Shown here piece by piece: positions 14,029 to 57,808 of a stretch of DNA of 64,000 nt; the first letter of the stretch is position 1; each line of letters opens with the position of its first letter. The DNA lies in assembly GCA_030682175.1 (NCBI GenBank), contig JAUXOM010000111.1:1-64000 (forward strand). Direction: 5' to 3'. The DNA is from Rhodocyclaceae bacterium (GTDB lineage: Bacteria; Pseudomonadota; Gammaproteobacteria; Burkholderiales; Rhodocyclaceae). The notes below the pieces were generated by a model. It did no database searches, was not told the DNA's origin, and saw nothing but the letters and a program-made list of their open reading frames with translations. Both the position numbers and the translations under genes were made by a program.

Positions 14029-14096
14029 ATAGTCGGCGCTGGCGGCATTCCGGACGTCCCGCTACAGCGCCAAAAGTCGGCGCTGGCGGGACGGCG
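14029..14096 (+). repeat. R1 repeat, one partial and one full copy forming REP-like hairpins
   Basis: Full copy at 14072-14096 and a partial one at 14029-14045. Here the repeat pairs with a complementary arm: GTCCCGC (14056-14062) with GCGGGAC (14086-14092), and CAGCGCC (14065-14071) with GGCGCTG (14079-14085). This makes a 14-bp stem with a TA bulge in the ppx/ppk intergenic region, a structure like REP elements. Confidence 0.8.
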
Positions 14097-14164
14097 CACG
14101 AGCGTGTCATACTAATATAAATAAATTGCATCGCCATTCAACGACTGCCACTCCATCGATAATC

Positions 14165-55263: not shown

Positions 55264-55799
55264 TTCAATTTTCCCTTGTTAGCAGCAAGATCGGCAGTAA
55301 AACCGATGCCGTGATGCTTCGGTTCAGGTAGCGCCATCAGGCCACGAATGGCGTCGATTAAGCCGGTAATCACTTGATCGTGCCCGGCTACCTTGCGTTC
55401 GAGTTGATCGAATTTTGCCGCCAGATCTTTATGCGTCGAGAGTATCTCGCGCAACTGAACGAAAGTGCGCACCACTAAGATACTGACTTCGACGGCGCGT
55501 GGAGAGTTGAGCACATTCCCCAGCATCAAGGCACCATGCTCGGTGAAGACACGCGGGAGACTGGAAGAAAATTTGCGGCTGCCGAGGTGGTCGCAATTTG
55601 CGACCACCTCGGTTTTCTCGTCTGGCGTCAATTGAAACATGAAGTCATCAGGAAACCGCTCGATATTGCGTTTGACCTGTTCGTTGAGCCGCTTCGTCGG
55701 CACGCCATACAGATCAGCCAAATCCGCGTCGATCATCACCCGCTGACCACGTATCAGCAAAATGCGGCGCACCAAGGTTTCAGGAATTTCGGGTTTCAT
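55260..55799 (-). CDS. ORF6N-domain DNA-binding-type protein
   Basis: 179 residues. ORF6N domain at 10-120: [60 protein letters not shown]; a helical tail follows ([20 protein letters not shown]). ORF6N is found in phage and in many bacterial chromosomes; role undefined. A 31-bp palindrome lies inside the domain at [10 protein letters not shown]. It overlaps ligA upstream and galU downstream by ATGA, an unusual guest in this housekeeping series. Confidence 0.88.
55582..55612. repeat. 31-bp palindrome within the ORF6N gene
   Basis: CCGAGGTGGTCGCAA (55582-55596), one central base, and its exact reverse complement (55598-55612): 15-bp perfect arms in coding sequence. Confidence 0.95.
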
Positions 55800-57808
55800 G
55801 CGAGCAACTCCTTGAATTGTGTCTCGTCGAGAATGCTAACGCCCAATTCCTGCGCTTTCGTCAATTTGGAACCGGCTGCCGCACCGGCCACGACGTAATC
55901 GGTCTTCTTCGACACCGAAGCAACCACCTTGCCACCATGCGCCTCGATCAACGCCTTCGCCTCCTCGCGCGTCAGAGTCGGCAATGCACCGGTCAGCACA
56001 AATATCTTGCAGGCGATGAGTGAACTGACCGACACCGAGGGCGCGCCTTCATCCCAGCGGACACCCGCCGCCCGCAACTGTTCGACCACCTCGACGTTAT
56101 GCGGTTCGGCAAAAAACCGCACGATTGACGCCGCCACCACCGGACCGACATCCGGCACCTGTTGCAGACGCTCGACATCGGCAGCCATCAGCGCGTCGAG
56201 CCCGCCGAAATGACGCGCCAGATCCTTCGCCGTCGCCTCGCCGACATTGCGAATACCGAGTGCAAAGATGAAGCGCGCCAACGTGGTCTTTCTACTCTTG
56301 TCGATTGCAGCGAGCAGGTTGGCGGCGGATTTCTCCGCCATGCGTTCCAGATTGGCCAGCTTGAGGATACCGAGTTTGTAAAGATCGGCCGGCGTCTTGA
56401 TGATGGCATTATCCACCAGTTGGTCGACCAGCTTGTCGCCCAGCCCTTCGATATCCATCGCCCGGCGCGAAGCAAAATGCAACAAGGCCTGCTTGCGCTG
56501 CGCCGGGCAGAACAGGCCGCCGGTGCAACGCGCAATCGCCTCATCCTCCGGCTTTTCGATGGCGGCACCGCAGACCGGGCAATGCCCGGGCATGATGAAT
56601 TCACTTGCAGTATCCGGTCGCTTCTCCGGCACGACTGCCGCCACCTCGGGAATCACATCGCCAGCCCGTCGCACGATCACCGTGTCGCCGACCCGCACAT
56701 CCTTGCGCCGCACCTCATCCTCGTTATGCAGCGTGGCATTGGTTACCGTCACCCCGCCGACGAATACCGGCGCCAGACGCGCCACCGGCGTGATCGCCCC
56801 GGTGCGGCCAACCTGCACCTCGATGGCTTCGACGGTGGTGAGGGCTTCTTCGGCAGGAAACTTGTGGGCGATGGCGAAACGCGGCGCACGCGCCACAAAG
56901 CCCAGCTTGGCCTGATCGGCCAGGCGATCAACTTTATATACAACGCCGTCGATATCGTAGGGCAGCGCGCGACGCGCCGCACCGATGCGTTCGTAATATT
57001 CCAGCAGACCGGTGGCGCCCTGTGCCACGGCACGCTCGGCCGCCACGGGAAAGCCCCAGCCGGCCAGTTGCTCCATCAGGCGGCTGTGCAAAGTCGGCGC
57101 TGGCGCGACGGCGCCGGCATCCGCGACGCCATAGGCGAAGAAGCGCAAGGGCCGCCTGGCGGTGATCTTCGGGTCGAGCTGGCGCAGGCTGCCGGCAGCA
57201 GCATTGCGTGGGTTGGCGAATTCCTTGTCACCGGCGGCACGCTGGCGTTCGTTGAGGCGTTCGAAATCGCGCCGCAACATCAGGACTTCGCCACGCACTT
57301 CGAGCAGGGGTGGGAGGTTCTTCCCCAAGCAGCGCAAGGGGATATTGCGGACCGTGCGGAGGTTATGCGTCACATCTTCGCCGGAAAAACCATCACCGCG
57401 CGTGGCGCCTTGCACGAATACACCATCTTCATAACGCAGGCTAACCGCCAGCCCATCGTATTTCGGTTCGCAACTGTAGCCCACGTCAGCCACACCCAAC
57501 CCGTCCCGACAACGGCGATCGAAGGCGATAAGCTCCTCGGCGCTGAAAGCATTGTTGAGCGACAACATCGGCACCCCATGCACCACCTGACCAAACGCCG
57601 ACAGGGGCGAGCCCCCGACCCGCTGCGTCGGCGAGTCGGGGGTTTGCAAATCCGGGTGTGCCGCCTCGATCTCCTGCAATTCCCGAAACAACCGGTCATA
57701 TTCGGCATCGGGAATGCTCGGCGCATCCAGCACGTAATAGGCGTGGTTATGACGCTCGATCTCGCCCCGCAGAAACGCTGCGCGCTCGGCGGCTGGACTT
57801 TCCGCCAT
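55796..57808 (-). CDS. ligA: NAD-dependent DNA ligase LigA
   Basis: Seals nicks in replication and repair; 670 residues. Domain Ia ([20 protein letters not shown]), adenylation site [16 protein letters not shown] with the active Lys, OB domain, Cys4 zinc finger ([19 protein letters not shown]...C), HhH repeats and C-terminal BRCT ([20 protein letters not shown]). An R1 repeat (57089-57113) encodes PAPTLHSRL in the adenylation domain. One base overlaps zipA (TGATG). Confidence 0.97.
57089..57113 (+). repeat. R1 repeat inside ligA
   Basis: R1 match on the strand opposite to ligA (two differences), so the gene reads its complement as AVAPAPTLH, a third reading of the same DNA repeat in protein. 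Confidence 0.75.

Follow-up and report, generated by a model that had tools for sequence, protein, structure and literature searches.

A 25-bp repeat, here termed R1, recurs with near-exact identity at unrelated places in the window, by which we mean the whole 64,000-nucleotide stretch of a Rhodocyclaceae bacterium genome that was analysed (assembly GCA_030682175.1, contig JAUXOM010000111.1, positions 1 to 64,000 of the forward strand). Some of its copies lie between genes and others inside protein-coding genes, where they are read in more than one frame. An earlier note on this DNA held that the repeat spreads or is maintained, and that it adds protein segments to several housekeeping genes. 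The locus raises the question of what kind of element R1 is, what keeps it intact and how its copies arise.

Copy number and structure of R1

All eight full copies listed in the earlier note are present, with 0-2 mismatches, but the list was incomplete, as two further sites at 8780 (-) and 59921 (-) had been missed. The partial copies exist too, with coordinates that had to be shifted by one or two bases (to 14028, 1139 and 23219) (Table 1). The proposed gene identities were borne out (RnfC/RsxC, ScpA, LigA, Ppx and polyphosphate kinase, with the copy at 28426 in a gene of the UDG superfamily), as was the use of three reading frames within the window. Although our crude gene caller placed the site at 31383 inside a gene, this site is probably non-coding, since it ends just before the ATG of the MFS transporter gene.

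Table 1. R1 sites and partial R1 sites in the window
Position	Strand	Feature	Context
1129..1153	-	R1 first block (2 mismatches) running into second repeat family TGCCCCGCATGGGGTACGGCG	
8780..8804	-	R1, 3 mismatches, enoyl-CoA hydratase gene, reads KVGADRTA	
14028..14042	+	First block of R1 only, with 1 mismatch	
14072..14096	+	R1, exact	Between ppx and polyphosphate kinase gene; partial copy (14028) and inverted arm precede
19376..19400	+	R1, 1 mismatch, rsxC/rnfC, reads KVGAGETA	In-frame 33 bp tandem array follows
23219..23243	+	Degenerate R1	
27197..27221	+	R1, exact, called intergenic	Adjoins T2SSE (PilB/GspE-type) ATPase gene
28426..28450	-	R1, 1 mismatch, UDG-superfamily gene, reads KSALAGRR	
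31383..31407	-	R1, 1 mismatch to Y-bearing consensus	Just upstream of ATG of MFS transporter gene
48098..48122	+	R1, exact, intergenic	Flanked by the rimP gene and the pseudouridine synthase gene
50393..50417	-	R1, exact with T at position 16	Reads KVGAGGTA in the N-terminal tail of scpA
57089..57113	+	R1, 2 mismatches, antisense copy within ligA, reads AVAPAPTLH	
59921..59945	-	R1, 2 mismatches, smc, reads ESALAERR	

Matches to the 25-mer with at most three mismatches number 10 in the window, against 0 in 100 dinucleotide shuffles. At the same threshold the whole genome (G000; 3,493,354 bases in 153 contigs, the window being located on contig C136) has 541 sites, 279 on one strand and 262 on the other, of which 78 are exact; the reversed word has 0 sites in the same search. 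The repeat is thus real, and its copy number, examined across the whole genome for a value near random expectation, proved to be far above chance, at a density of about 1 site per 6.5 kb.

The structure of the word was analysed in a sample of 462,617 bases (13% of the genome), made up of the window and 398,617 bases from three further contigs, in which 76 sites have at most four mismatches. R1 is an asymmetric word of two blocks, RAAAGTCGGCGCTGG-NNNN-ACGGCR, in which the blocks are nearly invariant and the spacer drifts: block positions 2-15 and 20-24 are changed in 35 of 1444 cases, spacer positions 16-19 in 65 of 304, and the mismatches are heterogeneous across all 25 positions (p about 1e-44). 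Perfect 19-position cores are the commonest class (49, 21, 9 and 9 sites at 0 to 3 mismatches, with 0, 0, 0 and 1 in the reversed control). Even divergence along its length would be expected of a copied repeat in decay, whereas the changes in R1 are very uneven. The limits of R1 are sharp, with information of at most 0.15 bits at each position examined outside the 25 bp and no conserved flank over the 76 sites; the word itself has an information content of 38.7 bits, far above the 13.7 bits needed for 541 sites. Inverted pairs are absent from the 463 kb sample, where no two sites (at most four mismatches) lie within 150 bp and nearest neighbours are at least 250 bp apart. As regards the proposal that R1 spreads or is maintained, the contrast between blocks and spacer bears out maintenance, and we infer from this pattern that R1 is a two-block site kept intact by some factor that recognises it.

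The sites are found both in and between genes. According to a simple codon-usage caller, which is crude, 37 of the 67 sample sites with at most three mismatches lie in genes, 28 are intergenic and 2 overlap a gene end, as compared with a coding fraction of 0.83 for the sample. All six frames are used, with 22 sites in sense and 15 in antisense orientation to their genes; the constraint thus acts on the DNA.

Other repeats occur beside R1. In rsxC, an in-frame tandem array with a 33 bp unit (19392-19556) directly follows the R1 copy, and a similar tail, 'GACGGCGTCAGCCG', is found near R1 elsewhere (C7:45324). A second family, with units of about 21 bp (AYGAAATGCCCCGNNNCGGGGT), adjoins or splits R1; it is seen at 1129-1153 in the window and elsewhere in the genome at C7:126431, C7:137449 and C25:83840-91015. 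At C7:57890, where our genome has R1 in a gene, R1 in the counterpart in the nearest relative, G009, is split by one 21 bp unit. A further family, CTTGGGGCGGCCCGGCG, has 26 copies in the 463 kb sample and is seen in the window at 42742-43258 and 52794-52891.

Distribution and dialects

In a search of 101 genomes, many of them, like others compared below, fragmented or incomplete, sites with two mismatches or fewer number 44 to 492 in 18 of the 19 genomes of the genus, ours among them. The remaining one, G006, a species of the same genus, has 0 sites in this search and again in a family-wide search; the count made for dialects returned four loose matches from it, none with a full core. The family-wide search, which covered 395 genomes and used the two-block core, found R1 to be dense (at least 52 sites) in 55 genomes belonging to 7 of 68 genera: g1 (18 of 19 genomes), g2 (21 of 22), g9 (1 of 1), g38 (1 of 1), g85 (1 of 1), g86 (4 of 4) and g104 (9 of 9). 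One genome of g2, G293, has only 20 sites, and every genome of the family outside the dense set has at most 22. At the level of the order (399 genomes), each of the 386 genomes outside the family has at most 5. R1-like sites are also seen around ligA and smc in Sulfuritalea metagenome-assembled genomes, and named contigs place the group in the neighbourhood of that genus.

Some R1-poor genomes hold a few copies, some of which are only a few kilobases apart. Such sparse, partly clustered copies occur in G139 (C1:1461266-1502244), G040 (whose stretches were picked around known sites, so that their density is not a sample), G039, G042, G057, G058, G475 and G094. Perhaps these sparse copies are DNA islands from R1-bearing donors.

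Individual species clearly appear, from the counts of letters at their sites, to carry genome-wide dialects of R1, altered at single positions. The last base is A in 28 of 31 sites of G002 and 28 of 30 of G017, and G in 58 of 73 sites of our genome and 34 of 41 of G009. In G016, position 5 is C in 11 of 12 sites and position 20 is G in 12 of 12; in G102, position 9 is A in 16 of 18 and the spacer is free; in G121, position 16 is T in 7 of 9. These counts were made per genome on sampled stretches, and many genomes rest on few sites (several on only 3 to 6, the ligA site included); over all genomes counted there are 306 sites, as against 7 matches to the reversed control. The orthologous site in ligA ends in A in G001, G002, G004, G011, G013 and G017, and in G in our genome, G005, G009 and G014, which agrees with the genome-wide letters, those of G014 being split 2 and 2. 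A change at one position over the whole set of a genome calls for a reader that acts in trans.

Origin of the copies

The earlier note viewed R1 as adding segments to proteins. As a general mode this was not supported. Across 63 aligned smc loci that span the R1 site (at least three of them from one genome, G009) there are 0 gaps, and mismatches to R1 range from 1 to 16; within the genus the values are 1, 2, 3, 5, 7, 8 and 10, with 13 in G006. Constant length combined with graded mismatches shows that R1 was built by substitution at this one locus. Conservation of the segment in all orthologues, which would have spoken against the earlier note, was looked for as well and is not seen in smc.

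Comparison with G009 covered 40 sites on two contigs, 23 of which fall outside any alignment. The 17 alignable sites comprise 10 ungapped and 7 gapped ones. Among the 13 called coding, 9 are ungapped and 4 gapped, one of the latter probably not coding. G009 shares the site in 7 of the 10 ungapped cases, and in 6 of the 9 that are coding, so those say little on origin.

Insertion does, as judged from the alignments, occur at a few copies, in loops and tails. In ligA, the 25 bp are ungapped in 9 of 11 aligned genomes of the genus, and G015 and L155 carry a longer insert that bears another R1; these inserts split the LigA protein alignment, which makes its gap count (93 of 93) meaningless, and it was not used. 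The scpA gene of G008 carries a full R1 copy preceded by a first block, in an insert-like arrangement. The enoyl-CoA hydratase site has 3 aligned loci, too few for a gap test. In-frame insertion, the mode of RPE-like palindromic elements in genes, is disfavoured as the general mode by smc, and retained for some loops and tails. Both modes of origin are discussed for the neisserial DNA uptake sequence (DUS), many sites of which lie opposite gaps or unrelated sequence in related genomes (PMC2397512).

Possible readers of R1

With the number of sites, their boundaries, the block-and-spacer structure, the genus-restricted distribution, the dialects and the substitution in smc established, we favour, as somewhat probable, the reading that R1 is an uptake-sequence-like self tag recognised by a DNA-binding protein, most likely the receptor of a natural transformation system based on type IV pili. 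Such a receptor would prefer DNA that bears both R1 blocks, and R1-bearing fragments would be taken up and recombined more often, so that R1 alleles would spread by molecular drive. If the receptor changed, the whole set of sites would drift to a new dialect, and if the system were lost, as perhaps in G006, the sites would vanish. Within genes, the tolerated frames would be those encoding small or flexible residues.

Of the expected machinery, ComEC scores above the cut-off in 18 of the 19 genomes of the genus, PilQ is present in 39 of 39 genomes tested, and ComP_DUS-type pilins were found in 17 of 19 genomes of the genus and in 53 of 61 genomes of the family and order; the R1-free G006 also has ComEC, PilQ and ComP-like pilins. 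Such uptake systems usually include ComEA. In none of the 17 genomes of the genus searched for it was a free-standing ComEA detected: 2 gave no match and 15 gave one match each, in a long frame, the match in our own genome (the only one of the 15 examined) being the HHH domain of Tex. As it was not found in the genus, ComEA was dropped as support for uptake. Of the 39 genomes searched in all, 5 have a free-standing ComEA; 2 of these are R1-rich (G121 and G203) and 3 R1-poor, so that it does not track with R1.

The only receptor candidate that we compared, the minor-pilin operon beside ispH, was likewise set aside. Within the genus it falls into at least two divergent types, our own type being found in 7 genomes, and the other, more distant types occur both with and without R1, thus showing no tracking (39 loci from 38 genomes, a number of them truncated at contig ends). 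At a number of these loci (L289-L291, L305, L307-L341) IspH is 70-88% identical while the operon is strongly diverged, and the divergent types probably reflect allelic replacement of pilus tip genes. Another candidate line of support was a Mu-like prophage (portal, Gp27, Mu-type transposase) in L049 (C25:1-20000) that lacks R1; it was dropped because the same 54 kb gap between sites holds 34 kb with ordinary core genes. Several other features weigh against the uptake reading: the density below that of the DUS, the lack of inverted pairs in the sample, the unequal strand counts on contig C7 (12 and 23), the copies that sit in insertions or adjoin other repeats, and the excess of information content over what 541 sites require.

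R1 resembles the DUS of Neisseria in being a genome-wide over-represented asymmetric word found in coding and intergenic DNA alike. On the opposite strand, and with A at position 25, its last block contains TGCCGTC, which we take to be shared with the DUS ATGCCGTCTGAA, possibly by chance. There are clear differences: R1 spans 25 bp, its two blocks being set 4 bp apart, whereas the DUS has 10-12 bp; there are about 540 copies of R1 and about 1900 or more of the DUS, and R1 is less dense; inverted pairs of DUS act as terminators (typically, though this is not essential), whereas R1 has none in the sample; and the DUS is read by ComP, while the one receptor candidate compared for R1 does not track with it. 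Further likenesses are the restriction to a family and the single-position dialects of species, in the case of DUS read by ComP (PMC3630211), and the frequent location of sites opposite gaps or unrelated sequence in relatives, and in permissive regions (PMC2397512). The uptake signal sequence (USS) of Pasteurellaceae is, like R1, a long discontinuous motif with a strong core, further elements and dialects, present in hundreds to thousands of copies (PMC12616744). R1 differs from it in sequence, the USS core being AAGTGCGGT, and has in ACGGC a nearly invariant second block, unlike the further elements of the USS, which are AT-rich and more weakly conserved.

Dialects need only some reader that acts in trans, however, and R1 could instead be a tag for another route of DNA transfer, such as a gene transfer agent, phage packaging or a conjugative system, with the same molecular drive and a different machine. 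The failure to detect ComEA in the 17 genomes would fit this, as would the few copies, some of them close together, that R1-poor genomes hold in the manner of transferred islands. However, ComEC and PilQ are kept, and among 2.9 million viral contigs exact R1 is found in 43 stretches (L234-L276); we regard this as unlikely. Several of these viral matches lie near stretch ends. A plasmid search with a synthetic tandem query returned 36 records, with E values from 0.07 to 3 among the matches listed.

An account that we find similarly unlikely, and place next, is that R1 binds a protein that organises or recombines the chromosome, with a role in the nucleoid, in segregation or like that of Chi. 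Many sites on both strands, in and between genes, would suit such a role, as would the strand counts on contig C7 alone (12 versus 23), but over the whole sample taken together the strands are 35 versus 41. R1 is, moreover, unusually long and exact for sites of this kind. Positions 11-18 read GCTGGYGG, which we take to resemble the E. coli Chi octamer; this stretch extends into the variable spacer, which in G102 is free, and a Chi-like function is thus disfavoured. The chromosome-organising role in general hardly fits the absence of R1 from one species, G006, and the very few sites in most of the family.

That R1 is a small mobile or REP-like repeat, spreading by insertion or copying with no reader, seems to us improbable. 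The insert-like copies in ligA and scpA, the 7 of 17 alignable sites that are gapped relative to G009, the very high information content, and the sites that share flanks or adjoin other repeat families could all be explained in this way, but the absence of a conserved flank over the set, the ungapped and graded origin in smc, the uneven constraint on positions and the dialect shifts of whole sets speak against it. REP elements associated with RAYT transposases are, like R1, short and dispersed in hundreds of copies, with a hairpin at some sites. The REP-like hairpin claimed for the ppx/ppk region is indeed seen by eye there and at a few other sites; R1 itself is single-armed and, unlike REP, common inside genes and without conserved flanks. 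The suggested link to a RAYT gene was not supported: the Y1 transposase family PF01797 was found (E up to 0.001) in 5 of the 19 genomes of the genus and not in the other 14, which include 13 of the 18 that bear R1, among them the R1-rich G001, G005, G008, G011 and G014 as well as G002 and G017, whose genomes are complete or nearly so. One of the three such matches in our own genome (C7:83765-84088) does lie about 240 bp from an R1 site (C7:84330), but the missing PF01797 and the unconserved flanks led us to reject RAYT/REP as the main account. The beta-proteobacterial repeat element BRE is, like R1, a dispersed repeat of Betaproteobacteria with some copies in genes; unlike R1, it is about 90 bp long and has at most 29 copies, with 1 copy in the one Rhodocyclaceae strain tabulated, a comparison made by description (PMC3110155). 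Finally, a motif acting at the level of protein or RNA is highly improbable, because although KVGAGGTA and AVPPAPTF recur in many proteins (AVPPAPTF being among the commonest R1 peptides, followed by KSALAGRR), R1 uses six frames in both orientations and 28 of 67 sites are intergenic.

We thus return to R1 as a candidate uptake tag. Neisseriaceae and Pasteurellaceae are described as the only families known to have uptake sequences (PMC12616744). In the open-access literature we found no report of uptake sequences in Rhodocyclaceae or Rhodocyclales, or of natural transformation in Sulfuritalea; literal 11-mers of R1 led to no paper with a title on a genomic repeat in these bacteria, and the wider open-access literature on uptake sequences deals, by title, with Neisseria, Pasteurellaceae, reviews or unrelated matters. 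We give an even chance to the proposal that the Rhodocyclaceae hold a third, so far unrecognised lineage of sequence-specific uptake, in which the uptake word has 25 bp in two blocks and exists in five or more dialects, individual species have lost the system, and the receptor and the periplasmic relay differ from ComP and ComEA. If this is true, a third lineage with dialects would offer an independent test of whether uptake sequences are a by-product of receptor preference or a selected means of self-recognition. R1 would also allow natural transformation to be recognised from sequence in a group that is largely known from metagenomes, and counts of R1 could mark DNA that has moved between genera.
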